In this document: piece after piece, positions 3,382 to 60,702 of the stretch | Numbering within the stretch: the stretch's first letter is position 1 | Layout: every line of letters starts with the position of its first letter | DNA from: a virus | Direction: 5' to 3' (one strand) | Length of the DNA: 64,000 bases | IMG/VR virus record: IMGVR_UViG_3300042503_001430 | Coordinates: 23,584 to 87,583 of that record | Program-made: the position numbers and the translations under genes | Notes under the pieces: generated by a model | What the model was told of the DNA's origin: nothing | Database searches by the model: none | What the model saw: only the letters and a program-made list of their open reading frames with translations

Positions 3382-4596
3382 ATGAAAACATTTAGACAGT
3401 ACCTTACAGAAGCATCTGACAAGAACACACACCTCGAACATCTTGAAGATGAAATTTTCAATGGTGGTGTTGCGGGTACAAAACGTGCTCTCAACTTCTT
3501 GCGTGGTCTTCGAAATATGTTGTCTGGCTCATCGAAATCGTCAGTCAACGTAACTGTCAAATGGGACGGTGCACCAGCGATTGTTTGTGGAACAAATCCA
3601 GAAAACGGCAAATTCTTTGTTGCAACGAAGAGTGCGTTCAACAAAAACCCCAAACTCAACTACACCCATGCTGACATAGACAAGAACCATTCTGGTGGTC
3701 TTGCAGATACTTTGAAGATTGCTCTCGACAACCTCTCGCAGTTGGGCATACAGGGTATCATACAGGGTGACTTACTATTCACCAAAGGTGCACTAGACAA
3801 TATCAACTACGATGGTGAAAAACTCGTCACATTCAAACCTAATGCTATTACGTATGCGGTACCAGCAGACTCAGACTTAGCACGTCACATTCTTGGCGCC
3901 AACATGGGTATCGTATTTCACACAACCTACGTCGGCGCCACAATTCAAGGTCTGAAAGCAAAGTTTGGTGCTGATATTTCGGGTCTTCGTCACACATCTC
4001 GTGTATGGGTCACTGATGCAAATTTTAGAGACACCTCTGGTGCAGCAACTCTCACCAAAGATGAGTCGGATATGGTGACAGCAATTCTGAGTGAAATTAA
4101 AGTGCTGCTTAGTCAAATGGACTCTCAGAGTGTTTCTGCGATTGTTTCTGATCCACAGATTGTGGGTTATGTTAAAGCATACATCAACTCTAAGGTGAAG
4201 GTTGGTGAGGGCATTTCAGGTACCAAAAAATATGCTACTGGTCTCGTTACTTTCATAAAAGGTAAGTTTCAATCTGAGATTGATGCTTTGAAGACAGACC
4301 GTGGCAAAGAAGGTAAAACTCAAAAGTTGAAGAACACCATTCAATTCATCAACACACATAAAGAGCAGTTTATTATCATGTTCATGATTGCTGCACTCAT
4401 GACAAGTGTGAAGGGATTGTTGTTGTCTAAACTCAAGAAGGTCAGCTCGATTGGCACGTTCTTAGAAACATCAGATGGGTTCAAAGTGACTTCACCTGAA
4501 GGTTTCGTTGCAGTAGATCATATTGGTAACGCAGTAAAACTCGTAGATCGTCTCGAATTCAGTCGAGCGAACTTCACTATGGAAAAGGGTTGGTAG
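3382..4596 (+). CDS. Capsid-targeted protein with KxDG motif (DUF6267-like)
   Basis: 404 residues from the ATG that gives the leader MKTFRQYLTE-A; a TTG seven codons upstream is rejected because the shared leader starts at the ATG. The leader resembles the T4 capsid-targeting sequence and has a prohead-protease-type site (LTE before Ala). The body has KWDG at residues 60-63 and GDLLF near 128-132, which look like motifs I and III of covalent nucleotidyltransferases (DNA/RNA ligases), then VTFKPNAITYAV. Long relatives are annotated as DUF6267 in marine T4-like phages. Ligase-type chemistry is a guess; packaging into the capsid is inferred from the leader and the late promoter. Confidence 0.7.
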   Translation: MKTFRQYLTEASDKNTHLEHLEDEIFNGGVAGTKRALNFLRGLRNMLSGSSKSSVNVTVKWDGAPAIVCGTNPENGKFFVATKSAFNKNPKLNYTHADIDKNHSGGLADTLKIALDNLSQLGIQGIIQGDLLFTKGALDNINYDGEKLVTFKPNAITYAVPADSDLARHILGANMGIVFHTTYVGATIQGLKAKFGADISGLRHTSRVWVTDANFRDTSGAATLTKDESDMVTAILSEIKVLLSQMDSQSVSAIVSDPQIVGYVKAYINSKVKVGEGISGTKKYATGLVTFIKGKFQSEIDALKTDRGKEGKTQKLKNTIQFINTHKEQFIIMFMIAALMTSVKGLLLSKLKKVSSIGTFLETSDGFKVTSPEGFVAVDHIGNAVKLVDRLEFSRANFTMEKGW

Positions 4597-4598
4597 TC

Positions 4599-5489
4599 AT
4601 GAAATCGTTTAAGCAATTCTTAACAGAGTCATTCAGTCAAGATCACATCAACAAGCTCAAAGCTGAGTATGGTACATTACAAAAAATGGACCCAACCTCA
4701 CCAGCATACAAGAAGCTCATCGCTCTTCTTGACAACCTACCTCAAGATCACTTGAAGCAACTTGCAGCAGCAGACATCAAGTTCATTTCGCCACTTGCGA
4801 AGAATCGAGTTAAAAAGTCTGTGTCTGAAGAAGAGTCTATCGATGAGCGTTGTTGGGATGGTTACAAGCCAACACCAGGTAAGAAGCCTTACGAGAAAGG
4901 TTCTTGCATGAAAGAAGAAGATGACCTTCAAGAAGAAGCAGAACATGATGGTAAGAAAGTCACATTGAACAAACCATTCAGAACACCAGACGGACCAAAG
5001 AAGTTTGCGGTGTATGTAAAGAACGATAAAGGTAATGTTGTTAAGGTGACGTTTGGTGATCCTAACATGGAGATCAAACGAGACAGTGATGACAGAAGAG
5101 CTAACTTTAGAGCACGACACAACTGTGATGATCCAGGTCCGAAGTGGAAAGCACGATACTGGTCGTGCAAGATGTGGTCGAATAAGCCGGTATCAAAAAT
5201 TGCAGAAGAGACTGTTGATGCATCTCAAGCGGCGAAGCTCTTCTCTAAGTTTCTCAGAAGTACTGGTGCGCCAGACAAGGTTGCTAAGTTCACATCAACC
5301 AAGAAGAATGTCTTCAAAGGTCAATCAGCAAAGTTTGACTACTACGTAGACATGGAAAAGAGAACCGTAGCATCTCGACAGAGAAACAGTTTCAATGACA
5401 CCATCTATGTGTGGGATGACAAGACACAAAGTGTGAAGATCGCAGAAGCTAAGATATACTTGGGTGAACTTTTGTCATCTAAAAAATAG
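4599..5489 (+). CDS. Capsid-targeted internal protein with RARHNCD...ARYWSC domain
   Basis: 296 residues. The leader is MKSFKQFLTE-S, with a predicted cut after Glu10. Next come a cysteine segment (CWDGYKPTPGKKPYEKGSC) and an acidic stretch with more (L/I)-x-E sites. A conserved block follows, FRARHNCDDPGPKWKARYWSC, which I recall from virion and scaffold-associated proteins of other phages. The C-terminal part is a separate small domain ending LGELLSSKK. The start is 2 nt after the upstream stop. Probably an internal head protein that is trimmed during maturation; exact role unknown. Confidence 0.65.
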   Translation: MKSFKQFLTESFSQDHINKLKAEYGTLQKMDPTSPAYKKLIALLDNLPQDHLKQLAAADIKFISPLAKNRVKKSVSEEESIDERCWDGYKPTPGKKPYEKGSCMKEEDDLQEEAEHDGKKVTLNKPFRTPDGPKKFAVYVKNDKGNVVKVTFGDPNMEIKRDSDDRRANFRARHNCDDPGPKWKARYWSCKMWSNKPVSKIAEETVDASQAAKLFSKFLRSTGAPDKVAKFTSTKKNVFKGQSAKFDYYVDMEKRTVASRQRNSFNDTIYVWDDKTQSVKIAEAKIYLGELLSSKK

Positions 5490-5492
5490 TAT

Positions 5493-6476
5493 ATGAAGTC
5501 ATTTGAGCAGTACATTTCAGAAGCTAATCCTGTCGTCGATCAAAAAGCACGATCATTAGCTGCACGTGTGTACAACAGAATGATTTCTCGTCTGAGAGAG
5601 TGTTTAGCTAAAGGTACTATTGGCACATCGTTTGTTTTCTATACCGCAAACGACAATGTTGGGTTCAATCTTGGCAGACTATTGCGAGAGCCCGACTACT
5701 TCGATATTACAATTTGGTTTGGACCAATGACAAACAAGTTTGGTGGCTACTTCAGTCAGCGTGATGACATGGACATCATCCATTTAGCAAAGTTGTTTCC
5801 TACATCAGCCAAAAAGATCAAACCAAATCAAGATATGAAGAACTGCGAGATTATTCTCGATGCTGTAGATAAACTACAGCATGATGTCAGAGATGTTTTT
5901 GTACATGAGTTCATTCACCACCTTGATGATACAAGATACAAATCCAATTCGTATAGAGTTAAAGGTACTCTGGACCTCTCTGGTGGTACATACTACAATG
6001 AACCAAAAGAACTTAACGCTCACACACAAGAGATGATTGCAAACATGGACTTGTGGTTCAAAGATTACTACGTCTCTACAGTCAATGCTCTCAAGAGTCG
6101 CATGGTTGTTGAGTTCAATCAAGCGAAAGATGAAGAGGGGTATGAGAATGCTCTGTTTATTGCAGGTAAAATTGTTCGTCACTATGCGCTGATTGTTGAA
6201 TACCTCGACGACACTCGAAAGGGTATGGAGTCAATCATCGAAAAAATTCCTGGCTCAAAGAGAGACTTCATGAAGCATTTGACGAGTGAGAATAGAAAGA
6301 AAGTGCTCGCTCGATTGTATCAGTACTACACAGAAACCCTCAATAAACGATTTAAGGTGCTCAAAGAATCGCTACTCTCGGTTGTGAAGAGACTCAACAA
6401 CAAGAATGCAATAGCGTACATTCAGAAAGAGGTTCCAGATACGTATAAATCTCTTGTGCAAATGGGGTTGAAATGA
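5493..6476 (+). CDS. Capsid-targeted zinc metallopeptidase (HExxH)
   Basis: 327 residues with the leader MKSFEQYISE-A. The zincin motif HEFIH is at residues 138-142, followed by HLDD and, about 30 residues on, NEPKELNAHTQEM, where a Glu or His could be the third zinc ligand. The C-terminal half is helical and basic. The leader predicts packaging with gp21-type cleavage after ISE, so the peptidase would enter the cell with the DNA. The alternative is a head-assembly protease. A second leader-tagged HExxH protein lies at 54.1 kb. The gene overlaps the next by 4 nt (ATGA). Confidence 0.72.
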   Translation: MKSFEQYISEANPVVDQKARSLAARVYNRMISRLRECLAKGTIGTSFVFYTANDNVGFNLGRLLREPDYFDITIWFGPMTNKFGGYFSQRDDMDIIHLAKLFPTSAKKIKPNQDMKNCEIILDAVDKLQHDVRDVFVHEFIHHLDDTRYKSNSYRVKGTLDLSGGTYYNEPKELNAHTQEMIANMDLWFKDYYVSTVNALKSRMVVEFNQAKDEEGYENALFIAGKIVRHYALIVEYLDDTRKGMESIIEKIPGSKRDFMKHLTSENRKKVLARLYQYYTETLNKRFKVLKESLLSVVKRLNNKNAIAYIQKEVPDTYKSLVQMGLK

Positions 6477-7486
6477 AAACGCTATCTGAAGTGGTGAAGA
6501 AAAAGAGTGCTGTGTTTGCGTTTGGTAGAATGAATCCACCAACATCTGGTCATGAGAAATTGATCAAGAAAGTTCTCGAAGTTGCAAAGAAGAATAATGC
6601 AACCCCGTTCATTTTCGTATCACACACACAAGACCCAAAAAAGAATCCACTCACCAGTAAGCAAAAGATTAAGTATCTGTCTTTGGGCATGCCTGATGTT
6701 GAGAAGTATCTTGTGTATGACCCTTCGGTAAAAACGCCGTTTGATGCTCTTGGGTACATTCAGAACAAAGGGTTTACTGATGTGATACTTGTAGCTGGTT
6801 CTGATCGTGTCAAAGAGATGAAAGATTCTCTAGCTAAGTACATAAACCACCCCGATCCAGAAAAACGATTTACGTTGAATTCTTTTGATGCTGTCAGTGC
6901 TGGTGACAGAGATCCAGATGCAGATGGTGTTACTGGTATGAGCGCATCAAAAATGAGGGCCGCAGCAGCAAGTAACGATTTCAATCTTTTCAAGAGTGGC
7001 GTTCTTTCGCACCTGAGCGACAGGTTTGCGAAAGCTATGTTCAATGATCTTCGCACAGCCATGCAAATTCACGAGATGGTTGAAGAGGTGAAGACGCTGA
7101 AAAATACGTTGAACATTCCTAGACGTGAGATGCCACAAATCAAGCGAGACCACATTCCTGAGTTTATCAAAGATTTGAAGAAAAGAGGTATCGACATCAG
7201 CAACAGATCAATACCTGTTGACACACTCAAGCCAACACAGAATGAAGTGAACCTCGATAAAGTCAAAGAGAAGTATCAGAAGTTTGTCGATGGTAAAGAG
7301 CCAAAACCATTTATTGTGTCACATGATAATTACATACTAGATGGTCATCACCAACTGTTCGCACTCAAGACACTCGATGGTGATCGTAAGGTTCCATGTT
7401 ACGTGGTTGGTATTAAGATGAAAGACTTGTTGAAGATCGCACATAAGTTTCCTAAGACAACCTATAAAACAATACTCGATAAATAG
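6473..7486 (+). CDS. Nucleotidyltransferase (cytidylyltransferase-like) fused to ParB-like domain
   Basis: 337 residues. The N-terminal half has FGRMNPPTSGH (residues 17-27), the HxGH-type nucleotide-binding loop of the NMN/cytidylyl-transferase family, and later GMSASKMR, the matching C-terminal motif. The second half (from about 225) carries IPVDTLKPTQNEVN and ILDGHHQLFAL, as in ParB/sulfiredoxin-like domains. This fusion is known from T4-like marine phages; its substrate is unknown. The start MKTLSEVV only partly resembles the leader of its neighbours and lacks the usual cleavage position. Translation is coupled by ATGA overlap. Confidence 0.75.
   Translation: MKTLSEVVKKKSAVFAFGRMNPPTSGHEKLIKKVLEVAKKNNATPFIFVSHTQDPKKNPLTSKQKIKYLSLGMPDVEKYLVYDPSVKTPFDALGYIQNKGFTDVILVAGSDRVKEMKDSLAKYINHPDPEKRFTLNSFDAVSAGDRDPDADGVTGMSASKMRAAAASNDFNLFKSGVLSHLSDRFAKAMFNDLRTAMQIHEMVEEVKTLKNTLNIPRREMPQIKRDHIPEFIKDLKKRGIDISNRSIPVDTLKPTQNEVNLDKVKEKYQKFVDGKEPKPFIVSHDNYILDGHHQLFALKTLDGDRKVPCYVVGIKMKDLLKIAHKFPKTTYKTILDK
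7478..7485 (+). promoter_or_regulatory. Late promoter GATAAATA, predicted start at the ATG
   Basis: Overlaps the last codons of the upstream gene. Six nt after its last base is 7491, the A of the next ATG, so the predicted transcript is leaderless. Confidence 0.72.
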
Positions 7487-7490
7487 ACAT

Positions 7491-7832
7491 ATGAAGACGT
7501 TCAAGCACTACATCGCTGAAGCTGAGAAGAACAGCACTAAGCCAAAGACAAACACCGACAAAGCTCGTGAGCGACAGACACGAGAAAAAGATGAGTTGAA
7601 GGTGCGCCAAAATCGTGAGATGGAAAAAGCACGTGAGCAAGACTTTCGACAAAAAGAAGCTGAGAAGCGTCAAAAAGAACTTCAAAAGAGAGCAGAGCAA
7701 AATGCTAAGAAACAAGAGTCTACTGACCCTTCGGTAGAAGTTGAATCTGAAGTGGATTTTGTTCCTGAGTATCTTGAAGATGGCACATTGGTCTTGGTGA
7801 AGAGCTATAAATCCTCAACGCCAGGTCAATAA
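7491..7832 (+). CDS. Capsid-targeted, highly charged coiled-coil protein
   Basis: 113 residues. The leader MKTFKHYIAE-A is very close to the T4 internal-protein leader MKTYQEFIAE. Residues 20-78 are almost all Lys, Arg, Glu and Gln in a long helical run, and the C-terminus (about 82-113) is a small acidic then hydrophobic tail. Composition and leader fit an internal head protein packaged with DNA. It has its own late promoter and no ribosome-binding site. Confidence 0.7.
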   Translation: MKTFKHYIAEAEKNSTKPKTNTDKARERQTREKDELKVRQNREMEKAREQDFRQKEAEKRQKELQKRAEQNAKKQESTDPSVEVESEVDFVPEYLEDGTLVLVKSYKSSTPGQ

Positions 7833-7836
7833 TAAA

Positions 7837-7866
7837 TTGACAACATATATGAAATTGATGTAAAAT
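7837..7866 (+). promoter_or_regulatory. Sigma70-type promoter
   Basis: TTGACA at 7837-7842 and TAAAAT at 7861-7866, 18 nt apart, upstream of the gene at 7892. Confidence 0.5.
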
Positions 7867-7891
7867 TGTTTTATTTTTGTGGAGTATCACT

Positions 7892-10353: not shown

Positions 10354-10932
10354 ATGAAGACGTTTTTAGAATTTATCACTGAAGCTCCAGTTGCAGCACC
10401 AACACAAACTGCTCTTCCTGAGATTTACCTCGACATGGACGAAACCATCGTCGATTGGATGAAAGGTGCTAACAAAGCTCTTGTCGCTGCTGGCTACCCA
10501 GAGTGGAACAACTCGTTCTGGAATAAGTACAGCGAAGAAGAAGCTGATGTGATTCGTTGGGGTGTGCTAAATGACACCCCAAATTTTTGGGAAAACCTGG
10601 ACTTCATGCCAGATGGTAAAGCAATCTGGAACTTCGTGAAGAAGTACAAACCAAAGATTCTTAGTGCGTGTGGTAGCAAAGCTGGTAGCATTTGTCGTGA
10701 AGGTAAAATGCGCTGGTTGACTAAACATCTCGGCATGAACAACCTCAGTGGGGTTCATCTCGTGACACGCTCTGAAAAGAAGAAGTATGCGGTTGTAAAT
10801 GGTAGACCAACCATTTTGATTGATGACTACGACAAGAACTGTGTTGAGTACAAAGCTGCTGGTGGTATACCAGTCAAAGCTACAACTGGTTCTGAAGTCA
10901 TCTCAAAGCTGAAAAAGATTGGATTTAGATAA
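10354..10932 (+). CDS. Capsid-targeted HAD-family phosphatase (deoxyribonucleotidase-like)
   Basis: 192 residues. After the leader MKTFLEFITE-A comes the HAD motif I YLDMDETIVDW (nucleophile Asp27, general acid Asp29), motif II around ILSACGS, a TRSEKKKYA segment and motif III/IV ILIDDYDKNC. This pattern and size match 5'(3')-deoxyribonucleotidases. If packaged, it could act on host or phage nucleotides right after entry, or on another phosphorylated target. No ribosome-binding site is visible; the start is 5 nt after the previous stop. Confidence 0.75.
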   Translation: MKTFLEFITEAPVAAPTQTALPEIYLDMDETIVDWMKGANKALVAAGYPEWNNSFWNKYSEEEADVIRWGVLNDTPNFWENLDFMPDGKAIWNFVKKYKPKILSACGSKAGSICREGKMRWLTKHLGMNNLSGVHLVTRSEKKKYAVVNGRPTILIDDYDKNCVEYKAAGGIPVKATTGSEVISKLKKIGFR

Positions 10933-12194: not shown

Positions 12195-12605
12195 ATGCTT
12201 TCATCGCATCATGATACTATGAATCAGCGATTGACTGAACAGAATTACATCATGTTTGCGATGAAGCACTATCAGAACCCCCAGTGTCTCAACATCGATG
12301 AATTTCACAACGACCTCAAGAGAATCAAATACATCAAGCGTCTGTTGAGTCGATATGTGGCTTCTGGCGAGTTAAAAGAACGTCTCATACTCAATCACCT
12401 CATCATTCTCTACAACTCATTTGGTGCTGAAGCAACCAAGCTCTTGTTCTTCAAGATAGACAAACAGTACTGGTCACAGCTCAAAACATTCTTGGTGTTT
12501 CTTCATTACATGCCAGAAGTTCTGCACCTTGTTGCAGACAAGCCGGTTCGTAGTACTGACATAGCTCTCGATCTATCAATCGTCGAAGTGTTGAGGAAGA
12601 TATGA
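12195..12605 (+). CDS. Conserved phage protein of unknown function
   Basis: 136 residues, or 128 from the ATG at 12219 (MNQRLTEQN), which may be the true start; neither has a clear ribosome-binding site. The core AMKHYQNPQCLNIDEFHNDL, RYVASGELKERLILNHLI and LLFFKIDKQYW belongs to a small helical family that I recall from marine T4-like phages near structural genes. No motif suggests a reaction. It overlaps the next gene by 4 nt (ATGA). Confidence 0.65.
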   Translation: MLSSHHDTMNQRLTEQNYIMFAMKHYQNPQCLNIDEFHNDLKRIKYIKRLLSRYVASGELKERLILNHLIILYNSFGAEATKLLFFKIDKQYWSQLKTFLVFLHYMPEVLHLVADKPVRSTDIALDLSIVEVLRKI

Positions 12606-12958
12606 AGTCATTTCGAACATTCTTATCTGAAGAGAAGCGCACGTTCAGTAAAGACCAAGCAAAACACATTGGCGATAAGCTCTCGGTTGACTGGTCAAAA
12701 GTTGACATAAACCAGTTCATTCTTGGATTGTCTGTCGAGTCTGAGCATGACGATGGTGGAAAACTTGATGTTGTGGATTCTGATGCTGACTTAGCCAAAA
12801 TTGTGTTAGCACATTTAAGAGAACTTCCAGATTATTATTCCAAGCTCAAAAAGGTGGAAGAAGAAGTTCCAGCAAATTCTATTTCGGGGAATGGAATTGC
12901 CGGTTTGAAAGAACCTATCGTTTTCCGAAAAAAGCGTTCCACTATTTCCAGACGTTAA
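12602..12958 (+). CDS. Capsid-targeted DUF5661-like protein
   Basis: 118 residues. Leader MKSFRTFLSE-E; then a domain (DWSKVDINQFILGLSVESEH and LAKIVLAHLRELPDYYSKL) that matches my memory of DUF5661, and a Gly-rich tail NSISGNGIAGLKEP. TTGAGGAAG just before the ATG is a good ribosome-binding site, unlike most leader-tagged genes here. Likely a packaged internal protein; function unknown. Confidence 0.68.
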   Translation: MKSFRTFLSEEKRTFSKDQAKHIGDKLSVDWSKVDINQFILGLSVESEHDDGGKLDVVDSDADLAKIVLAHLRELPDYYSKLKKVEEEVPANSISGNGIAGLKEPIVFRKKRSTISRR

Positions 12959-13008: not shown

Positions 13009-13016
13009 AATAAATA
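13009..13016 (+). promoter_or_regulatory. Late promoter AATAAATA, predicted start at the ATG
   Basis: The predicted start is 13022, the A of the next ATG. This also argues against an in-frame ATG at 12977 that would lie upstream of the promoter. Confidence 0.7.
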
Positions 13017-13021
13017 CTGCT

Positions 13022-13381
13022 ATGAGTGACGACGACAATAAAAATCCAGAAAACGAAATCAATGAGCTGACAGAAGACAAAAACCTTTTCGATGACTTGG
13101 GGCTTTCAGTACAACTCGGTGAAGTTGAGGTTGGTCAAATATACCCAATCTATGGACTGATTACTGAGTTTGTCAGTGAAGCGCCTGGAAATGTTGTCGT
13201 TAAGGTGAACGAAAACATTCAAGTGACAATGAACATAGAAGACCAAGACAAGATTGATGTTCTCAAGAACAGAAGCTTCGACCCTGGCATTTTCGTATGT
13301 ACGATCACTGAAGTTGATACGATCATCAAAGCTGAGTGCTCTACAGTAATTTTTGGCAAGAACAATAACACAATACAATAA
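13022..13381 (+). CDS. Hypothetical late protein
   Basis: 119 residues beginning MSDDDNKNPE. The N-terminal 35 residues are acidic and probably disordered. Then comes a beta-rich domain with VGQIYPIYGLITEFV, NVVVKVNENIQVTM and PGIFVCTITEV, like an OB or SH3-type barrel. I recall similar proteins in marine T4-like phages but no function. The start is fixed by the late promoter ending 6 nt upstream. Confidence 0.6.
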   Translation: MSDDDNKNPENEINELTEDKNLFDDLGLSVQLGEVEVGQIYPIYGLITEFVSEAPGNVVVKVNENIQVTMNIEDQDKIDVLKNRSFDPGIFVCTITEVDTIIKAECSTVIFGKNNNTIQ

Positions 13382-13729: not shown

Positions 13730-14119
13730 ATGAGAGCGTTTTTTATTTTTAACAACCTAAAAGTAAATACGTTCACTCTTCAAGATGAGCCTTTTCCTGG
13801 TTTTGAACTGCTCACCTGGGAGCACGAGAGCTATGCTCACGGCACTTTGTGGGATATTGGATTTGATGCTGGCTATACACCAATAGGTATTACCAAAGTA
13901 CACGGTCAACTTTGGTTAGCTAATGATGTGCAACAAATATCAGAGCTTGAGTATTTCTTGGGTGTGCAATCTGGACTTACAGAACCCATGAATACGAAAA
14001 TATGTGTTCAAGACGATTTAGGAGTCGAACAGGTCACTGCAACGGTGTATAAATTACGTGAGATCAAAAGTGCGTATGACATCGTTTATGATGGAAAGTG
14101 GCTCATTAAGAGGTATTGA
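13730..14119 (+). CDS. Gamma-glutamylcyclotransferase-like protein
   Basis: 129 residues. The order of elements fits the GGCT/AIG2 fold: an N-terminal strand FIFNNLK, an AHGTLWDIGFDAGYTPIG middle, VHGQLWLANDVQQISELEYFLGV and a final VTATVYKL strand. The usual YGTL loop is replaced by FNNL, so the active site may be altered. Family membership is a judgement from pattern only. Confidence 0.45.
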   Translation: MRAFFIFNNLKVNTFTLQDEPFPGFELLTWEHESYAHGTLWDIGFDAGYTPIGITKVHGQLWLANDVQQISELEYFLGVQSGLTEPMNTKICVQDDLGVEQVTATVYKLREIKSAYDIVYDGKWLIKRY

Positions 14120-14121
14120 TT

Positions 14122-14547
14122 ATGGACATTATGGCTTTTTTGACTGTTCTCTACAAGAACAGAATTGTCATAGGTATTGTTTCACTAGCGTTTGTGCTTC
14201 TCTCGTGCTTTGCATACTACAAGTACACCGTGGTTAAGATTGAGCTTCTTGAGCAAGAGAACGCACGACTTGTCGAAGAAGTTGAAGAGCAGAAGCGAGC
14301 GATTCAAACCCTCAAACAGAACTATGAAAACCTCGTCAAGACGAAAGATGATCTCTCTCGTGAGATCGAAGACATTCGAAGAGCAGAACAAGAAGAGATT
14401 GATCGAATAGCTCGTGAGCAACATAACAAGAAGTCTCTCGAAGAGCTTGCTCTCAAGAAGTCAAAGCTTGTAGAAAACGCTGTCAATCGTGCCACACAGA
14501 ATGTGTTTCGGTGCTTTGAGATTATTTCCCTTGGGGGTGACTGCTAA
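14122..14547 (+). CDS. Probable inner-membrane spanin (Rz-like)
   Basis: 141 residues. One N-terminal membrane span (about residues 15-35, IGIVSLAFVLLSCFAYY), then a long coiled coil rich in Glu, Lys and Gln (about 40-110), and a short tail FRCFEIISLGGDC. This is the layout of i-spanins, which link the inner membrane to an outer-membrane lipoprotein during lysis. The next gene is a lipoprotein with overlapping start (TAATG), completing a spanin pair. AAGAGG precedes the start. Confidence 0.68.
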   Translation: MDIMAFLTVLYKNRIVIGIVSLAFVLLSCFAYYKYTVVKIELLEQENARLVEEVEEQKRAIQTLKQNYENLVKTKDDLSREIEDIRRAEQEEIDRIAREQHNKKSLEELALKKSKLVENAVNRATQNVFRCFEIISLGGDC

Positions 14548-31991: not shown

Positions 31992-31999
31992 CATAAATA
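31992..31999 (+). promoter_or_regulatory. Late promoter CATAAATA
   Basis: Just after the tmRNA 3' end. Predicted start is 32005, the first base of a 12-bp stem in the leader of the next gene. Confidence 0.72.
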
Positions 32000-32105: not shown

Positions 32106-32960
32106 ATGAAAAACTTTTCAGAATTTCTAACAGAATCAATACTCGACCCCGAACAAGCTACCTTGTCGCCACAGGTGTTTGATGCAGACGGTACGAAGCT
32201 CAAGCCTGAAGTTCGCACTCAAATCATCGCAGGTATCTCGAAGCTTGCTGATAAAGCTAACGTGGTAGACTACACACTCATTGGTAGCATACTCACGAAG
32301 CGATATGCACCAGACTCAGATATTGATGTGAACATTCTTATCAACACCAAGCAGAGTCAGATTGATGATATTCGCTCGTTAGCTGTCAGTCTCAGTGGCA
32401 AAACCATCACCGGCACAAAACACCCAATCAACTACCACGTCTTAGCAGACAAAACAGATTTTGATAATGCAAACGAATCTGCTGATGGTGTGTTTGACAT
32501 CAGCAACAATACGTTCATACGAAAACCAACCGAAAAGCCATTTCACATCGAGAAGTACTTCGGTGAATTCAAGAATGTTGTCTCTAAGATTGACGCACTC
32601 AAAGACGATTTGAAAGATGACTTGATTGACTACTCGGTGTTGAAAGCATTCTCAGAAGAAGACATGACGAACCTTCGCAAGATGATTGAGAAAGAGCTTG
32701 ATGAGATTGAGAGTGATGTGAAGGGTCTTTCTGCACTCTATGACAAAATCTGGAAAGACAGAAACGCAGGGTTTCAGAAGAAGCTTACGCCCAAAGAGAT
32801 TCGAGAATATGGCACCAAGAATCGACTACCAGGTAATGTCATCTACAAGTTGCTTGAGCGTCACCACTACCTTCAATTTTTACATCAGGTAGAAGAGATT
32901 GTAGCAGACGGCAAAGTTTCTGAAAAAGAAGCTGATAAATTGATTGACATTGTTTTCTAG
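32106..32960 (+). CDS. Capsid-targeted pol-beta-type nucleotidyltransferase
   Basis: 284 residues. Leader MKNFSEFLTE-S. The body has LIGSILTKRYAPDSDIDVNI: Gly60-Ser61 and the acidic pair Asp72/Asp74 of the pol-beta nucleotidyltransferase fold (GS-x10-DxD). The rest is helical with long charged segments. Such enzymes add nucleotides to RNA, proteins or antibiotics; as an injected protein it could modify a host target. The ATG, not the TTG three codons earlier, gives the conserved leader. Preceded by a structured late leader RNA. Confidence 0.75.
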   Translation: MKNFSEFLTESILDPEQATLSPQVFDADGTKLKPEVRTQIIAGISKLADKANVVDYTLIGSILTKRYAPDSDIDVNILINTKQSQIDDIRSLAVSLSGKTITGTKHPINYHVLADKTDFDNANESADGVFDISNNTFIRKPTEKPFHIEKYFGEFKNVVSKIDALKDDLKDDLIDYSVLKAFSEEDMTNLRKMIEKELDEIESDVKGLSALYDKIWKDRNAGFQKKLTPKEIREYGTKNRLPGNVIYKLLERHHYLQFLHQVEEIVADGKVSEKEADKLIDIVF

Positions 32961-35795: not shown

Positions 35796-36026
35796 ATGAA
35801 GATTGATTTCACAAGTCTTGTCAGAACGCACCTTGGGTTCCCTTCAGAATGGAAAGGCAAGACGCAAGATGGTAAAGACATAACCATCTCGTACCGATGT
35901 GGTAGAACGAAACTCATCGTAGATGAAGTGATTGTCGGTACACTCTCACTCGACCAATTTGATATTGGTGGTTACATGGACGACCATGTATTAAAGAAAC
36001 TGCTTGAAGATAACGGGTATCTATAA
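35796..36026 (+). CDS. Hypothetical small protein upstream of gene 33
   Basis: 76 residues after AGGAG. Beta-rich first half (KDITISYRCGRTKLIVDEVIVGTL), acidic end. Overlaps the gp33 start by one base (TAATG). No family recognised; position suggests a transcription or replication accessory role. Confidence 0.55.
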   Translation: MKIDFTSLVRTHLGFPSEWKGKTQDGKDITISYRCGRTKLIVDEVIVGTLSLDQFDIGGYMDDHVLKKLLEDNGYL

Positions 36027-36259
36027 TGGGATTGAAACTTCACACTCAATCGACTTTCTCGAAAGAGATTGAGAAAATTGTCAGAGATCAAAAAGTCACC
36101 TACTTCGAAGCGGTGTGTGACTACATCACAACCAATAATATTGAGCCTGAGACTGTACCTAAGCTTCTTACAGCTCGCATCAAAGAGATCATTGAAGCAG
36201 AAGCTACAGACTTGAACCTCATCAATCGTGGTAAGAAGAGAGCGAAGTTTGTTCTATAG
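36026..36259 (+). CDS. 33: Late transcription coactivator gp33
   Basis: 77 residues. TYFEAVCDYITTNNIEPETVPKLLTARIKEIIEAEA followed by DLNLI aligns, in spaced blocks, with the core of T4 gp33 (YLEATTAFLEENSIPE...), and the gene order 33-59-32 is that of T4. gp33 links RNA polymerase to the sliding clamp at late promoters, matching the many NATAAATA promoters here. Shorter than T4 gp33 (112), with a truncated N-terminus. Confidence 0.75.
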   Translation: MGLKLHTQSTFSKEIEKIVRDQKVTYFEAVCDYITTNNIEPETVPKLLTARIKEIIEAEATDLNLINRGKKRAKFVL

Positions 36260-42060: not shown

Positions 42061-42681
42061 TTACCTCTTTCTTATGAGATCGAATGATCTCTCCCAAATT
42101 TTTTGTTTGTTGGTGCTTTGACCAACATTCGAAATGAATTTTTCTGTCGGCAAGAACAGAGCAAGCTCCCATTCTTCTTGTGGTATGACAGAAATTTGTG
42201 GAGAGATATTCTTGAAAAGATACCTCTTTATGCAAGGTCTGTAATACCTCAAAGCCTGCTTTTCGAGTAGCATTTCGTAGTCTATTCTAACAACAGGGTC
42301 GCCGAGTTTGGTTCCAACATATTTATACAGCTCACTCATAAACATGATTCGGTGCAGTGGCTTTAGGTAGTGAAAGTTGAGAGCGAGCATACTCGATGTG
42401 TCCATAGATAGCGTGAGTACCAAAGGAAACGTGTCGTAGTATGATAGGGTAGCTTTTTCTTTGGGTGTGTACTTGAATGTTATGATCTGACCTGCAAAAG
42501 AAAGTATCTTTTTGGGTTGGGTTTCATAGACATTCGGGGGGTCTTGCGTCTTGCTTCCAAATGTCGTTTCTATTTTGTTCTGATACCATTCGAGAGCTTG
42601 TGTGCTTCGTTCTTTGAGCTTGGGTTTATCAGCTTTGACCTTTTCAATCAGACGTTGAAAGTTGGTTTTGGTTGGTTTCAT
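42061..42681 (-). CDS. Conserved T4-like virion protein
   Basis: 206 residues. YYDTFPLVLTLSMDTSSMLALNFHYLKPLHRIMFMSELY and YYRPCIKRYLFKNISP belong to a family I recall from structural regions of marine T4-like phages. No enzyme motif. Its late promoter ends 6 nt before the ATG, predicting a leaderless mRNA. Confidence 0.6.
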   Translation of the reverse strand: MKPTKTNFQRLIEKVKADKPKLKERSTQALEWYQNKIETTFGSKTQDPPNVYETQPKKILSFAGQIITFKYTPKEKATLSYYDTFPLVLTLSMDTSSMLALNFHYLKPLHRIMFMSELYKYVGTKLGDPVVRIDYEMLLEKQALRYYRPCIKRYLFKNISPQISVIPQEEWELALFLPTEKFISNVGQSTNKQKIWERSFDLIRKR

Positions 42682-42686
42682 TCATG

Positions 42687-42694
42687 TATTTATG
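42687..42694 (-). promoter_or_regulatory. Late promoter CATAAATA (minus strand)
   Basis: Predicted start is 42681, exactly the A of the ATG of the downstream minus-strand gene. Confidence 0.7.
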
Positions 42695-50629: not shown

Positions 50630-50944
50630 ATGCAACAAAAGGTACTTGAGCTGTTTACAGAATTGCAGAGAGCACGAAAGCTGAAGTTCATTCAAGGTAT
50701 CGATTGCCTTGTGATGAACGATCATCCTATGCTCACTCGTGATACGAGTCTTTTTGCGATGTCTGACGTTTCAGTACCTCACCCCAATACAGTGAAAATG
50801 TATGTGAGGTTCGACCCTAGCGTTTCATATGGTCAAATACTTGACATCAAACGATATGTGGAGATCAAGTATGGATTCAAGTGCTCTCTTTGTGAATGGT
50901 CTATTCCCTCAAGATTGGACATAACAGTGAATATAAATATCTGA
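50630..50944 (+). CDS. Small paralogue family member
   Basis: 104 residues. LFTELQRARKLKFIQGI (helix 1), VKMYVRFDPSVSYGQILDIKRYVEIKYGFKC, LDITVNI. The ATG is 3 nt after the transaminase stop. A loop of about 30 residues is inserted before the second strand. A late promoter for the next gene lies in its last codons. Confidence 0.58.
   Translation: MQQKVLELFTELQRARKLKFIQGIDCLVMNDHPMLTRDTSLFAMSDVSVPHPNTVKMYVRFDPSVSYGQILDIKRYVEIKYGFKCSLCEWSIPSRLDITVNINI
50932..50939 (+). promoter_or_regulatory. Late promoter TATAAATA
   Basis: Exact T4 consensus. Predicted start 50945, 2 nt before the ATG. Confidence 0.72.
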
Positions 50945-50946: not shown

Positions 50947-51804
50947 ATGAAGAGCTTTTTAGAGTATTCACGTCAAATTGACGAGAAGCAAATTCAGTAC
51001 GGCAAGAACGCTAACTACGGACAGGTGGTGTTCTTTGCTGGCGGTGCTGCATCAGGTAAAGGCTTCGCAGTATCTAACTTCATCGACACAACCAAATTCA
51101 AAGTGTGGGACGTTGACGATCTGAAAATCAAGCTCACCAAGATGCCGAGCATGGTTGCTAAGTACCCTGGTATCGACAAGCTGAAGCTCAATAATCCAGA
51201 AGATGTTAGACAGCTACACCTCATAGCAAAAAACGAAGGCATACCAGAAAAGCAACTCAAAGCATGGATTGGTAACTTTCATTCACCCGATACTTTGCCG
51301 AACCTTCTGTTCGACATGACGTTCAAGAGCATAGAAAACGCATCGTTCATCATACCAGACCTCATCAAAGCTGGCTACAAACCACAAAACATTCACATCA
51401 CCTGGATTCTTGCAAACTACAACGTAGCTGTACAGAGAAACAGAATGAGAGAACGTGTGGTGCCAGATGACATTATGTTACTCACACACTCTGGCGCTGC
51501 GATGACGATGAAAGACATCTTGAGTGGTTCATTACCAAAAGAGATCAACGGCAGTTTTACGGTTGTTCTCAACAATCCAGAAGAAGTGTCGTTCTACACT
51601 CGAAGTGATGATGAAAAATCAAAAATAACGAAACCATCGAAATCCTCTGTCGTAAAAGACTTTACCTACATCACAGTAAAGAAAGCCGGTGCGCCTATGC
51701 AAACATGGCGAGAGATGCAATCACAAATTCGTGAAAAGATATTTTCATGGGTCATGAAGAATGCACCTCAATCTGATGAGGTTAAGGGTGCATATTCGTC
51801 TTGA
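50947..51804 (+). CDS. Capsid-targeted P-loop kinase-like protein
   Basis: 285 residues from the ATG behind the late promoter. Leader variant MKSFLEYSRQIDE-K with the cleavage-type site IDE. Walker A is AGGAASGKG (residues 31-39), then VWDVDDLKIKL (acidic motif after strand 2), ITWILANYNVAVQRNRMRER (lid-type Arg). This fits Zeta-toxin/kinase-like P-loop proteins of phages. An injected kinase could act on nucleotides or a host protein. Confidence 0.65.
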   Translation: MKSFLEYSRQIDEKQIQYGKNANYGQVVFFAGGAASGKGFAVSNFIDTTKFKVWDVDDLKIKLTKMPSMVAKYPGIDKLKLNNPEDVRQLHLIAKNEGIPEKQLKAWIGNFHSPDTLPNLLFDMTFKSIENASFIIPDLIKAGYKPQNIHITWILANYNVAVQRNRMRERVVPDDIMLLTHSGAAMTMKDILSGSLPKEINGSFTVVLNNPEEVSFYTRSDDEKSKITKPSKSSVVKDFTYITVKKAGAPMQTWREMQSQIREKIFSWVMKNAPQSDEVKGAYSS

Positions 51805-53888: not shown

Positions 53889-54122
53889 ATGCGGTCGTTT
53901 ACGCATCTTGAACTTCAGCTTGTTCTGGCAAAAAAGTGTAAACTCATCAAAGACTTTGAGTACATAAAGAATCGTGACTTCATTCTTGTGAGGTTCTTGT
54001 CTGCTACGACACAAGAACAGAAGTATGAGTTGCGAGAGCATATTCGACAAGCATATCGAGACGTTATAAGTGTTACTCTGACACCACACGACAACGCACT
54101 GTACATACGTTACTCTTCATAA
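53889..54122 (+). CDS. Small paralogue family member
   Basis: 77 residues. LQLVLAKKCKLIKDFEYI, FILVRFLSATTQEQKYELREHIRQAYRDVI, ALYIRYSS. Its last codons carry the late promoter of the following leader-tagged peptidase gene. Confidence 0.6.
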   Translation: MRSFTHLELQLVLAKKCKLIKDFEYIKNRDFILVRFLSATTQEQKYELREHIRQAYRDVISVTLTPHDNALYIRYSS

Positions 54123-54125
54123 ATA
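54118..54125 (+). promoter_or_regulatory. Late promoter CATAAATA, predicted start at the ATG
   Basis: Predicted start 54131, the A of the next ATG; leaderless late mRNA expected. Confidence 0.72.
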
Positions 54126-54130
54126 TCTGT

Positions 54131-54997
54131 ATGAAATCGTTCAAAGAGTTTCTTACAGAAGCACTTATTGATGTTGATGCGTCAGATATTAATCTGATCT
54201 ACGCACCTATGGCAAAGCCTATGCGAGAACTTGCAGAGGTTTGGAAACGTCATTTCAAAGACCTCACAAGCAGCGACCTAGACCTTCGGAATCTTGCACA
54301 AACCCGATTACAACGTGAACTGAATGAGGTGCGAAAGAAGTATCAGCCCGTGTTTGGTCCACTGAAAGTGATTGACTCATCGAAACTCAAGTCAGAGAAC
54401 GCAAAGAAAGCACATGCAATAAACCCAGTGAAGATCAATGTGTACTTAATTGGTACACCGAGCATGTCAAATTCATACAACGTACAGCACAAGGAGATTA
54501 ACATCTGTTTGCCGTATGGTGTTGCAGAAGCGATGATGGATCGTATCAACACTGTACCTCAGTATCAGTTACCGATGCTACAGAACGAAGTATCGATGTT
54601 GAAGCACAAGACAACCATTCGTCATGAACTCACCCACTGGATAGACGATTCACTTCACAACCTGTACCTGACAAAAGCACTGTTTCGTGCTCACGAACTG
54701 GTAAAAGTAGACAAAGAAGGTGCGGTAAAATACTACAATGATGCTGTGAAGCATGGGTTCGATGACATTTACCTATCGCCCGTAGAAGTCACGCCGATGG
54801 TGAATCAGATAGCAGAACTGAAGCGACGACTTGGCAACAAAAAATACGACAACCTCACCTGGGCACAGGTCATGATACTTTTACCTTCGCTCGATTCATT
54901 GAATAGAAAACACGGCGCAGCATGGCGCAAAATCATGTTCACTCGACTTGCTAGAGAAAACCTCATAGGTAAAAAGTTCAGAGATCAGTTGTCGTGA
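54131..54997 (+). CDS. Capsid-targeted zinc metallopeptidase (second)
   Basis: 288 residues. Leader MKSFKEFLTE-A. Zinc motif HELTH at 165-169 (IRHELTHWIDD), then SPVEVTPMVNQIAELK about 50 residues on, with Glu as candidate third ligand. KINVYLIGTPSMSNSYN may line the site. It differs in sequence from the peptidase at 5493 except for leader and zincin motif. Predicted to be packaged and injected. Overlaps the next gene by GTGA. Confidence 0.72.
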   Translation: MKSFKEFLTEALIDVDASDINLIYAPMAKPMRELAEVWKRHFKDLTSSDLDLRNLAQTRLQRELNEVRKKYQPVFGPLKVIDSSKLKSENAKKAHAINPVKINVYLIGTPSMSNSYNVQHKEINICLPYGVAEAMMDRINTVPQYQLPMLQNEVSMLKHKTTIRHELTHWIDDSLHNLYLTKALFRAHELVKVDKEGAVKYYNDAVKHGFDDIYLSPVEVTPMVNQIAELKRRLGNKKYDNLTWAQVMILLPSLDSLNRKHGAAWRKIMFTRLARENLIGKKFRDQLS

Positions 54998-56005: not shown

Positions 56006-56006
56006 G

Positions 56007-56564: not shown

Positions 56565-56566
56565 CT

Positions 56567-56821: not shown

Positions 56822-57084
56822 AGAAGCGCATACCTGATCTCATAGAAGAACTCATACGAGCACGAGAGACGTATAATGACTATGTGTTTGCAGTAAAGCA
56901 CACAAAGTACAGTCAACCTCTTTTGTGTATAACTGATGAGGTTCAGTTTCGCATTACAGCTAATGTCACCGAGCAGCAAATACGACAGATCATCAAGTAC
57001 ATTCGCAATTCTTATGAAAATATCTATTCGGTTCAATGTAATAGAGACTACTCAATGATTGTAGCTCTGTTTGCTGAAAAGTAG
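56818..57084 (+). CDS. Small paralogue family member
   Basis: 88 residues, ATGA overlap. LIEELIRARETYNDYVF, VQFRITANVTEQQIRQIIKYIRNSYENI, MIVALF. Helix 2 (YIRNSY) is a close match. Confidence 0.6.
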   Translation: MKKRIPDLIEELIRARETYNDYVFAVKHTKYSQPLLCITDEVQFRITANVTEQQIRQIIKYIRNSYENIYSVQCNRDYSMIVALFAEK

Positions 57085-57087
57085 CTT

Positions 57088-57095
57088 CATAAATA
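57088..57095 (+). promoter_or_regulatory. Late promoter CATAAATA
   Basis: Predicted start 57101, one nt before the ATG at 57102. Confidence 0.7.
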
Positions 57096-57101
57096 GCACG
57101 T

Positions 57102-58286: not shown

Positions 58287-58985
58287 TTACTGAATATTTT
58301 TGTCGATCTTAGTCATTGTCTGCTTGTACAGTTTCAGGGCAGCTTTCAACTCTTGTGCATTGAATGTGGTGCTGGTTGCAGAAACCACTTTCTTGAGTTG
58401 TGCTATTGCCCAGAGAACGCTGTCACGACTTTCCCAGAAAACCATATCGTCATTGTCATTAGAGAAGCTGAGTATCATTTTTCTGCCAGAACCTCTAACT
58501 TGCATAATACCCTTGACAAGATACTCGTTGCCGAGGTTGTTCTGTTGTCTTCGAATAACAAGAAAGAATTCATTCTCACCTTTGTTTAGTTTGGTGAATG
58601 GCAACCTAGCTTCAGACACATTCGATGTGATGCGAATAACATCTGCGTCAAAATTTTTCCTGAAAAGTTCAAACACTTCAGGATACGTGATCGTTTTTCG
58701 CTGTGGAAATGGCGCTGTATTATCTTGGTAATCATCGTCATCTTGGTAGGGCGACGAGTGTTGTGTGGCGTTGGTTGTCGCTAAGTGTGAAAGCACATCT
58801 CGTGCTACGTTGATCTTTTGCATCATGACAACACTGCCACCTTTGTCGGGGTGGTTTGCAATCGCAGCTTTCTTGTATGCGTCTTTGAGTTGATCTGGTG
58901 TGAAGTGTGGTGAGAGACCGAGAACCTTGAGTGCATCGCTCGGTGTCATGGTCGCTTCAATGAGGTAATGAATGAATCGTTTCAT
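58287..58985 (-). CDS. Capsid-targeted J-domain protein
   Basis: 232 residues on the minus strand. Leader MKRFIHYLIE-A. Residues 14-60 form a J domain (DALKVLGLSPHFTPDQLKDAY, HPDKGG with HPD at 45-47) that should stimulate DnaK-type Hsp70. The C-terminal 140 residues are unique (VIRITSNVSEARLPF, GIMQVRGSGRKMILSF). An injected J protein could recruit the host chaperone early. Late promoter 5 nt from the ATG by prediction. Confidence 0.78.
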   Translation of the reverse strand: MKRFIHYLIEATMTPSDALKVLGLSPHFTPDQLKDAYKKAAIANHPDKGGSVVMMQKINVARDVLSHLATTNATQHSSPYQDDDDYQDNTAPFPQRKTITYPEVFELFRKNFDADVIRITSNVSEARLPFTKLNKGENEFFLVIRRQQNNLGNEYLVKGIMQVRGSGRKMILSFSNDNDDMVFWESRDSVLWAIAQLKKVVSATSTTFNAQELKAALKLYKQTMTKIDKNIQ

Positions 58986-58995
58986 AGTAGTCTAC

Positions 58996-59003
58996 TATTT
59001 ATG
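58996..59003 (-). promoter_or_regulatory. Late promoter CATAAATA (minus strand)
   Basis: Predicted start 58990, 5 nt before the ATG of the J-domain gene. Confidence 0.68.
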
Positions 59004-59067
59004 TGGGGTGAATTTTGTACGAAAATCCACAATGGCAGAAAATTGTGCTTCCACAAAAATATAGGTA

Positions 59068-59096
59068 TTGACAGAAACGATCTCGTTTGATACACT
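59068..59096 (+). promoter_or_regulatory. Promoter of the tRNA cluster
   Basis: TTGACA (59068-59073), 17 nt, TACACT (59091-59096). Confidence 0.7.
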
Positions 59097-59135
59097 AAGT
59101 AGTACAGTGTGCCACTTAGTGGCTCCACTCAGTAT

Positions 59136-59207
59136 GTTTCCATCGTCTAGTGGTTAGGACACCCGCCTTTCACGCAGGTAACACGGGTTCGACTCCCGTT
59201 GGAAACA
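59136..59207 (+). tRNA. tRNA-Glu (TTC)
   Basis: Acceptor GTTTCCA/TGGAAAC, T arm CGGGTTCGACTCCCG, anticodon TTC at 59169-59171. The anticodon stem has one C-A mismatch. CCA is not encoded. Confidence 0.9.
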
Positions 59208-59228
59208 CACACATACATAATGATATAC

Positions 59229-59304
59229 GGAATCGTAGTTCAGTGGTTAGAACGCTCCCCTGTCACGGGAGAGGTCGTGGGTTCAAGTCCCATCGGTTCC
59301 GCCA
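59229..59304 (+). tRNA. tRNA-Asp (GTC)
   Basis: Acceptor GGAATCG/CGGTTCC, anticodon GTC at 59262-59264, loop CTGTCAC; GCCA end encoded. Confidence 0.93.
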
Positions 59305-59314
59305 TTTTTTATAT

Positions 59315-59389
59315 CGGGGTGTAGCTCAGCCCGGCTAGAGCGCCTGTTTTGGGAACAGGAGGTCGTAAGTTCGAATCTTGCTACCCCGA
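59315..59389 (+). tRNA. tRNA-Pro (TGG)
   Basis: Acceptor CGGGGTG/TACCCCG, anticodon TGG at 59350-59352 in loop TTTGGGA. CCA is not encoded. Confidence 0.92.
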
Positions 59390-59394
59390 CACAC

Positions 59395-59469
59395 TGGCGA
59401 GTAATTCAGTGGAAGAATGTCTGACTGTTAATCAGATCGTCGTAGGTTCGATCCCTACCTCGCCAGCCA
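59395..59469 (+). tRNA. tRNA-Asn (GTT)
   Basis: Acceptor TGGCGAG/CTCGCCA, anticodon GTT at 59427-59429, loop CTGTTAA; GCCA end encoded. Confidence 0.93.
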
Positions 59470-59470
59470 C

Positions 59471-59478
59471 AATAAATA
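59471..59478 (+). promoter_or_regulatory. Late promoter AATAAATA
   Basis: Directly after the last tRNA. Predicted start 59484, 5 nt before the ATG at 59489. Confidence 0.65.
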
Positions 59479-59488
59479 CCCTCTACGT

Positions 59489-60028
59489 ATGAAACGCTTC
59501 AAGCACTACATCGCAGACCTCACCGAATCAAAAGCATCTGACGCTTACGCTGCTGCACTGCAACAATTTCACGGCAACTCATCAAACTACATCAGTCGCA
59601 AAACCAAGAAAGATCCAACAGACCTTACACGAGATGAGATTAGAGCATTTAAGAAGGTGCTTGATGCGAACAGAGCCAAGTTCAAATCTACACAAGAACT
59701 CTACAACGCTGTTGCAGACCACTACGATATACCCGTTGCAACACTTCAGCACGTTGAAAAGACATTGAAAGAATCAACAGAGCAAGAACGCAAAGACTAC
59801 ATCAAGAGTCTTCAACTCACCCTTACCGCAGACGACCTCACTGATGCACAACTGAAAGACTTCGCAAGACGCAGTAATGGTGGTCCAAGTTCGCCGAATC
59901 AAATTTCAGCTAAAGCAGACGTTGACGCTATGTCACCAAATCACCTCAAGCAAGTAATCGCACACAAACGAGTACACGTGTTCTTTAAGAACCATGCACG
60001 ACAACGACTTTCTGGAAACTGGAAATAA
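59489..60028 (+). CDS. Capsid-targeted protein, unknown domain
   Basis: 179 residues. Leader variant MKRFKHYIADLTE-S with cleavage site LTE at 11-13. The body is helical: KASDAYAAALQQFHGN, LTRDEIRAFKKVLDAN, ELYNAVADHYDIPVATLQHVE and HVFFKNHARQRLSG. Charged throughout. No family recognised; predicted internal protein because of leader and late promoter. Confidence 0.62.
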   Translation: MKRFKHYIADLTESKASDAYAAALQQFHGNSSNYISRKTKKDPTDLTRDEIRAFKKVLDANRAKFKSTQELYNAVADHYDIPVATLQHVEKTLKESTEQERKDYIKSLQLTLTADDLTDAQLKDFARRSNGGPSSPNQISAKADVDAMSPNHLKQVIAHKRVHVFFKNHARQRLSGNWK

Positions 60029-60046
60029 CCCCCATCACACATCATC

Positions 60047-60301
60047 ATGATAGCACCCACCCTCATTCACGAACTCTCAGAAGCACGACAACGTGACCTG
60101 TTGCAGTTTAAGATATTCAATGAGTATGAGCTTCAGATCACGTTCTATGGGGTGTCACAAACGACCGTAGAAAGAATTCAACATTATATTCAAACTCACT
60201 ATGACTACCGAACCACACTCTTTATCGACTATAGCATCAGCACCGTGATGGTGTACACGTACAGTACGATAAAGCTCAACCCGCCGGAAATATGGATATG
60301 A
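60047..60301 (+). CDS. Small paralogue family member
   Basis: 84 residues. LIHELSEARQRDLLQFKIF, LQITFYGVSQTTVERIQHYIQTHYDYRT, TVMVYTYS. Lies between two leader-tagged genes and overlaps the second by 4 nt. Confidence 0.6.
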   Translation: MIAPTLIHELSEARQRDLLQFKIFNEYELQITFYGVSQTTVERIQHYIQTHYDYRTTLFIDYSISTVMVYTYSTIKLNPPEIWI

Positions 60302-60702
60302 AACGCTTTACGCAATACCTTACTGAAGCTCTTGACCCCGTTGAAGTACTAGGTCGCAACCTTGCTGCAAAAGCTAGGTACAAGCAGTTGCACCAGTCGA
60401 ATCCACAAGCAGCACACGAGTTTCTACAGAGATATAAAGCTCGCACTGAAGCACACCAGAAGCTCTACACGCTACTGAAAGACCTTATCTCACAACACCT
60501 CTCTCGCACCTCAAAGCTCAACATCACGTCAGGGTCAAACTATGCTATCGCTGTGAAGAATGTATCTGATGCGGTACGTGATCAGTTTCCAGAATTGAAG
60601 CACCAACAGATTGCACGAGCACTGAACGACCTAAATGCAGACACCGAGACCATGACGAGCATGTTGATTGATGTGTTGTTTTCAGACTTGAAGAAGTTGT
60701 AG
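60298..60702 (+). CDS. Capsid-targeted protein, unknown domain
   Basis: 134 residues from the ATG giving MKRFTQYLTE-A (an ATG two codons upstream is rejected). The body is helical: VEVLGRNLAAKARYKQL, AAHEFLQRYKARTEAH, LYTLLKDLISQHLSR and a final helical domain QIARALNDLNAD. Part of a late operon. Function unknown. Confidence 0.62.
   Translation: MKRFTQYLTEALDPVEVLGRNLAAKARYKQLHQSNPQAAHEFLQRYKARTEAHQKLYTLLKDLISQHLSRTSKLNITSGSNYAIAVKNVSDAVRDQFPELKHQQIARALNDLNADTETMTSMLIDVLFSDLKKL

Follow-up and report, generated by a model that had tools for sequence, protein, structure and literature searches.

At least twelve unrelated proteins with probable T4-type capsid-targeting leaders, probably injected cargo, in a T4-like phage related to Kyanoviridae

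The internal proteins IPI, IPII and IPIII of T4 and the other T-even phages, together with their capsid-targeting sequence, are said to have been described by Mullaney and Black and by Repoila et al. T-even phages contain diverse internal proteins that have just this leader in common, at least ten of which have been reported so far; those of T4, Ip1-3, are injected and act as inhibitors of host restriction enzymes (PMC12373910). In IPIII of T4, genetics assigned leader positions 4 and 7 to capsid targeting and positions 8 and 10 to cleavage by gp21 (PMC9026906). Enzymes are also found in cyanophage virions (cytidylyltransferase, kinase and S-adenosylmethionine (SAM) hydrolase in S-CREM2, S-CRM01, S-SCSM1 and S-SM1), and in the giant phages SPN3US and phiKZ many head proteins are reported to be trimmed by a prohead protease and ejected (PMC7411985, PMC10052503). 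Here we describe a window of 64,000 nucleotides (bases 23584-87583 of the 87,583-base IMG/VR record IMGVR_UViG_3300042503_001430; 127 genes were called in the whole record) that encodes twelve or more unrelated proteins beginning with a similar short leader. We consider it highly probable that these are T4-type capsid-targeting leaders, and that the proteins are late-expressed, core-assembled, gp21-trimmed and probably injected cargo.

The likeness to the T-even internal proteins lies in the ten-residue N-terminal leader, the same constrained positions, the unrelated bodies, the late promoters and the gp21-type protease of the phage group. The T4 set consists of three small basic proteins and, with a leader of its own, Alt; this Kyanoviridae-like phage encodes twelve or more, which reach 404 residues in length and many of which are enzyme-like. 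As for the cyanophage virion enzymes, a cytidyltransferase is located at the same cluster position, and several of the cyanophage proteins found in purified virions have the leader; however, about 4-5 tags per genome are present there against 12 here, and those enzymes were reported without a targeting explanation. The giant phages belong to a different lineage and are likened by description, not by sequence. The T-even internal proteins provide the known precedent, and what is new is the number, the enzyme content and the spread across T4-like families. A literature search, with incomplete coverage of subscription papers, found no report of the leader in cyanophages.

The leader and the bodies behind it

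A preliminary description of the window had proposed twelve proteins with a shared T4-like N-terminal leader, and this was borne out beyond chance with ten canonical and two variant leaders. All twelve start positions code for proteins as described:

3382..4596, plus strand: DUF6267 protein (Pfam), the KxDG protein of the preliminary description, with a KWDG motif; leader MKTFRQYLTE (3382-3411); putative core cargo
4599..5489, plus strand: unknown protein; leader MKSFKQFLTE, kept in sisters; putative core cargo
5493..6476, plus strand: HExxH protein (HEFIHH), putative metallopeptidase by motif only; leader MKSFEQYISE; putative core cargo
7491..7832, plus strand: small charged protein; leader MKTFKHYIAE, kept in sisters; putative core cargo
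10354..10932, plus strand: HAD-type 5'-3' deoxyribonucleotidase-like protein (PHROG); leader MKTFLEFITE; putative core cargo
12602..12958, plus strand: DUF5661 protein (Pfam); leader MKSFRTFLSE; putative core cargo
32106..32960, plus strand: pol-beta-type nucleotidyltransferase (Pfam); leader MKNFSEFLTE
50947..51804, plus strand: P-loop/zeta-toxin-like kinase (PHROG 5e-52; Pfam weak); variant leader MKSFLEYSRQIDE
54131..54997, plus strand: second HExxH protein (HELTHW), putative metallopeptidase by motif only; leader MKSFKEFLTE
58287..58985, minus strand: J-domain protein (DnaJ in Pfam; PHROG); leader MKRFIHYLIE
59489..60028, plus strand: unknown protein; variant leader MKRFKHYIADLTE
60298..60702, plus strand: unknown protein; leader MKRFTQYLTE; second in-frame ATG at 60292

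The canonical pattern M-K-x-F-x-x-[FY]-[LI]-x-E was present in 10 of the 12 (3382, 4599, 5493, 7491, 10354, 12602, 32106, 54131, 58985 minus and 60298). The two variants both have F4 and Y7, with the site at 11-13 in 50947 and with D at position 10 and LTE at 11-13 in 59489. F/Y4, F/Y7, L/I8 and E10 are complete in 10/12 leaders, and positions 4 and 7 are kept in 12/12. Against the ten canonical leaders among 127 called genes, 2000 shuffles of the residues produced none, and 0 of 460 internal methionines matched; at the DNA level, a degenerate pattern gave 10 matches in the record and its reversed control 0. When 35 leaders of seven families were compared, the information was highest at positions 1, 2, 4, 7, 8 and 10 and dropped after 11. 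The positions invariant here (4, 7, 8 and 10) are those assigned by the IPIII genetics. Over leader codons 2-10 the mean identity was 59%, and identical residues were encoded by identical codons in just 51% of comparisons; since synonymous positions differ, the leaders are held by protein-level selection and not by recent copying.

The bodies belong to different Pfam and PHROG families, and the functions given for them are predictions from sequence. Among the earlier assignments, DUF6267, the pol-beta nucleotidyltransferase, DnaJ and DUF5661 were recovered in Pfam and the HAD protein and the kinase in PHROG; the kinase matched Zeta_toxin in Pfam at 7.7e-4, which fails the family cut-off. The two HExxH peptidases (5493 and 54131) gave no family match and remain putative by their motif, and the single-sequence AlphaFold model of the 54131 protein was uninformative (predicted local distance difference test, pLDDT, 40). 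In DUF6267, residues K60, D62, G63, E373, G374, V376 and K386 were invariant among 24 homologues, that is, KxDG, then EGxV, then K, which is the motif order of ATP-dependent ligases. Its AlphaFold model (pLDDT 76) had no PDB match at E<=0.001, and a profile search of PDB sequences returned nothing; T4 RNA ligase 2, tRNA ligases, DNA ligases and capping enzymes recurred among the weak structural matches. A ligase-like nucleotidyltransferase of the KxDG ligase/capping superfamily is our reading of this protein and not a result.

In the 4599 protein, the segment CWDGYKPTPGKKPYEKGSC (residues 77-122) was also observed in a neighbouring, otherwise unrelated sister protein (L233:8256-9392) and may be a mobile small domain. 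Outside the window, positions 13764-14318 of the record (G000) encode a protein whose N-terminus is degenerate (MFTFKQQQLHESS) and which is homologous to gp6, the SAM hydrolase of S-CREM2 virions; it is a possible thirteenth cargo protein.

Virion proteomes and late promoters

The virion proteome of S-CREM2, obtained by mass spectrometry, comprises 52 of 219 proteins (PMC10665884, Table 3). We translated the 216 annotated genes of this phage and scanned them for leaders with a protein pattern fixed beforehand, M..[FY]..[FY][LIM].E. It was matched by gp6 (SAM hydrolase), gp14 (kinase) and gp154 (cytidylyltransferase), and the three are in the virion list, with a chance of about 0.013 (hand calculation, 52/219). 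The relaxed pattern, which was loosened after the virion list had been seen, adds gp13 and gp136 and places 5/5 in the list (hypergeometric P=6.5e-4, and 5.4e-5 without structural proteins). The gp136 gene adjoins the terminase genes. The annotation of S-SCSM1 places gp91 (NMNAT, MKSFLQFLKE) among the virion proteins. A kinase was also reported in S-CRM01 virions (PMC10665884); it is probably the product of the annotated PKN8 gene, with MISFDQFLSE as its N-terminus. The match to the T4 capsid-targeting leader, as originally claimed, is upheld by the agreement with the IPIII residues, by the retention in orthologues described below and by the mass spectrometry of S-CREM2 and S-SCSM1 virions. 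The cluster in the window has one further gene related to these virion enzymes:

6473..7486, plus strand: cytidyltransferase/NMNAT-like protein without canonical leader (MKTLSEVVKK)

This protein is homologous to the leader-bearing virion proteins S-CREM2 gp154 and S-SCSM1 gp91. In the Cas9-like virion protein gp12 of S-CREM2 (OR473000 7704-10313, minus strand), a leader-like stretch, RFASFMAEA, lies about 17 residues from the N-terminus, and the N-terminal region can be aligned with gp91 of S-SCSM1; the start codon annotated for gp12 may be wrong.

With respect to expression, the preliminary description had placed late promoters directly upstream of eight of the twelve genes. The enrichment stood and the count did not: NATAAATA is located at most 30 nucleotides upstream in 6/12 (3382, 7491, 50947, 54131, 58985 minus and 59489), and the promoter ahead of 32106 lies 106 nucleotides away. 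A promoter at most 12 nucleotides before the start was found in 5 of 12 leader genes versus 3 of 115 others (Fisher P=1.5e-4). The positions were as follows:

3348..3355, plus strand: late promoter NATAAATA, 26 nucleotides before 3382
7478..7485, plus strand: late promoter NATAAATA, 5 nucleotides before 7491
31992..31999, plus strand: NATAAATA, 106 nucleotides before 32106, link to the gene doubtful
50932..50939, plus strand: late promoter TATAAATA, 7 nucleotides before 50947
54118..54125, plus strand: late promoter NATAAATA, 5 nucleotides before 54131
58996..59003, minus strand: late promoter NATAAATA, 10 nucleotides before 58985
59471..59478, plus strand: late promoter NATAAATA, 10 nucleotides before 59489

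Over the whole record, WATAAATA was not significantly enriched (7 versus 10 in the reversed control), and it is just the position relative to start codons that is. The DUF6267 promoter is kept at 27 nucleotides in five sister contigs. Leader genes without their own promoter may be read from late promoters upstream. The record also encodes a gp55-like late-transcription factor, besides the following:

36026..36259, plus strand: gp33-like late-transcription coactivator (match to S-CREM2 gp197, E=9e-13)

Some genes, tagged or untagged, have NATAAATA exactly 5 nucleotides before the ATG (7478-7491, 13009-13022, 54118-54131 and 42061-42693 minus); this is also seen in the sister contig L233 and, for the HAD and 13022 orthologues, in sister contig G059. 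The T4 spacing would place the transcript start at the ATG for such a promoter, and with this spacing these genes would have leaderless late mRNAs. A class I/II aminotransferase (PF00155, 57102-58286) has a late promoter 6 nucleotides ahead and no leader. Four tRNA genes (Glu, Asp, Pro and Asn) are located at 59136-59469, in a stretch of small genes between the leader genes 58985 minus and 59489.

Sister phages and other T4-like phages

Judged by its genes, the record is a genome fragment from an uncultured phage that is T4-like and close to Kyanoviridae. PHROG matches included UvsX, a gp41-type helicase, a gp61-type primase, a gp32-like single-stranded DNA-binding protein, a helicase loader and DNA ligase, as well as tail tube, gp48- and gp53-type baseplate proteins, a gp2-like DNA end protector, PhoH and ribonucleotide reductase. 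With the first 25 kb as query, megablast gave no closely related isolate. Gp23 was not found in the fragment, from which head genes are missing. Genes of portal-, protease- (1e-72), scaffold- and gp23-like proteins are present in sister contig G059, the portal and scaffold being probable assignments from position and sequence, and they are followed by a tube-like protein that resembles the first gene of the record (MSITDLKSRNFQSPLTFDFRVD versus MPTYEVVNRNFQSPLNFEFRVD). The absence of protease and gp23 is therefore most simply explained by the start point of the contig, the fragment apparently beginning just downstream of the head genes. The PF03420 protease was present in 10/10 complete phage-isolate genomes tested.

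Sister orthologues bearing the leader or a close variant were found for 7 of the 12 tagged proteins. Between gp41 and gp61, the sister cluster contains those of 3382, 4599, 5493, 7491, 10354 and 12602, at about 40-79% identity. For DUF6267 (3382) the leader is present in 5 sister orthologues (68-71% identity), with variant forms in remoter homologues; in 4599 it is intact although some 100 residues between leader and body differ; in 5493 it is intact in three orthologues at 40% identity; and in 7491 it is present at 6 sister loci. The HAD protein (10354) has orthologues with leader at 61-70% identity, DUF5661 (12602) has them with leader or close variant, and the pol-beta protein (32106) has two (56-60%), one with canonical MKSFNNFLHE and the other with variant MKNFKSHLRE. 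Seven neighbours interleaved with or adjoining these genes (6473, 8402, 9281, 10964, 11875, 12195 and 13022) have the leader in no sister. Searches of viral contigs gave no relatives of 5493, 50947, 54131, 58985 and 59489; these scans overlook divergent relatives, since 5493 has sister orthologues and 50947 and 58985 have phage-isolate homologues that turned up by other routes.

A broader pattern was run on 38 records, where some matches were intragenic or contained stops, so that the counts are upper bounds: 4 in S-CRM01, 5 in DSL-LC03, 4 in C48C1 and 10 in this record, with 0-2 per record in reversed controls. In T4 it recovers ipII, ipIII and gp61.1. The set is unusually large among the scanned records, as had been claimed: 10 canonical leaders in 87.6 kb compare with at most 6 in any other scanned record, those 6 being in a sister phage. 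Close sisters have 2-6 leaders in fragments of 5.8-93 kb, which indicates that a high leader density is a trait of the clade. Homologues of the 50947 kinase occur in 207 phage records and those of the 58985 J-domain protein in 196, mostly phages of enterobacteria and Aeromonas. The N-termini of a few of them were read and are leader-like, some behind TAAATA-type promoters. Two kinase homologues of Straboviridae start MKSFKQFTESTLTE (Klebsiella phage P-KP2) and MTLKSFKEFITLDE; J-domain homologues also occur in Straboviridae, and that of Variovorax phage V45v66 starts MNRYESYLRE. The homologue of Aeromonas phage CC2 has a less clear leader (MSKMFNELFES). These N-termini suggest a cargo pool common to several T4-like families.

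T4 gp61.1 (NC_000866 18966-19130, minus strand, 54 residues, MKTFKEFIKED...) also bears the leader, and from its sequence it is a possible further T4 internal protein. Its gene adjoins 61.2, which is AdfA, an anti-DarT factor (PMC9391042).

Proposed route of the cargo and alternatives

The tag itself, its constrained positions, its retention in orthologues and its association with virion proteins of related phages were observed directly, and they strongly support capsid targeting by a T4-type leader; trimming by gp21 and delivery into the host cell we infer by analogy with T4. The tagged proteins would be expressed late, and the leader would dock each of them on the prohead scaffold core. A gp21-type prohead protease would then cut behind the (L/I)-x-E site, leaving the body free inside the head, and the freed proteins would be packaged alongside the DNA and would probably accompany it into the next host, active before any phage gene expression. 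Six would form the core set conserved in sisters between gp41 and gp61, and the rest would be additional cargo, partly common to T4-like phages of enterobacteria and Aeromonas.

Several observations weigh against this interpretation. The processing positions are altered in two leaders (50947 and 59489), 6/12 leader genes have no promoter directly upstream, and the PF03420 prohead protease was not found in the 87.6-kb fragment. The virion proteomics is that of the related phages S-CREM2 and S-SCSM1; the 5/5 figure suffers from the later relaxation of the pattern, gp175 of S-CREM2 (looser pattern) was not detected in virions, and gp30 of S-SCSM1 (MKTFKQFMSE) is tagged, yet not annotated as a virion protein. 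The S-CREM2 authors leave open whether the virion enzymes are carried or contaminants (PMC10665884); at the level of sequence, the leader favours carriage over contamination.

It is unlikely, though worth considering, that the proteins are targeted to the capsid and do their work inside the head, with core assembly, DNA condensation and head maturation as examples of such work, rather than serving as injected cargo. The evidence for targeting would be identical, the 7491 protein is small and highly charged, and T4 head assembly is slower without IPIII (PMC9026906). However, the enzyme- or chaperone-like bodies (nucleotidyltransferase, nucleotidase, kinase and J-domain) have no obvious job in a sealed head, and T4 Ip1-3 are injected and block host restriction enzymes (PMC12373910). 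Much less probable is that the motif docks the proteins on a different part of the virion, a membrane or a replication complex instead of the head core. Whole-virion mass spectrometry cannot place proteins within the particle, and the tagged gp136 of S-CREM2 is encoded next to terminase genes; against this, the match to the T4 leader covers both targeting and cleavage residues, and the pattern recovers T4 ipII and ipIII. Finally, twelve copies in one genome could come from duplication or recombination, but chance similarity or recent functionless copies of one DNA segment have practically no probability, both having been rejected by the shuffles (0/2000, canonical pattern), the internal methionines (0/460), the differing synonymous codons and the orthologues that keep the leader down to 40% identity. 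Regional composition as the source of the leader was also rejected, as the interleaved neighbour genes never carry it.

Returning to capsid-targeted, injected cargo, a wider proposal, whose chances we judge to be even, is that of a modular delivery code in T4-like phages. A ten-residue leader would load any protein into the head, lineages like the present one would have assembled a kit of enzymes for injection (ligase-like protein, nucleotidase, nucleotidyltransferase, kinase, J-domain protein and putative peptidases) that acts at time zero of infection, and cargo would be exchanged between distant T4-like families. The feature has been studied mainly in T-even coliphages, and its sequence rule is usable on many environmental T4-like genomes, where it names the proteins likely to be injected by phages that lack a laboratory host. 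It also offers a testable reason for the recurrence of enzymes in the virion proteomes of cyanophages. Should the cargo be injected, the host cell would be altered by ready-made enzymes before transcription begins.

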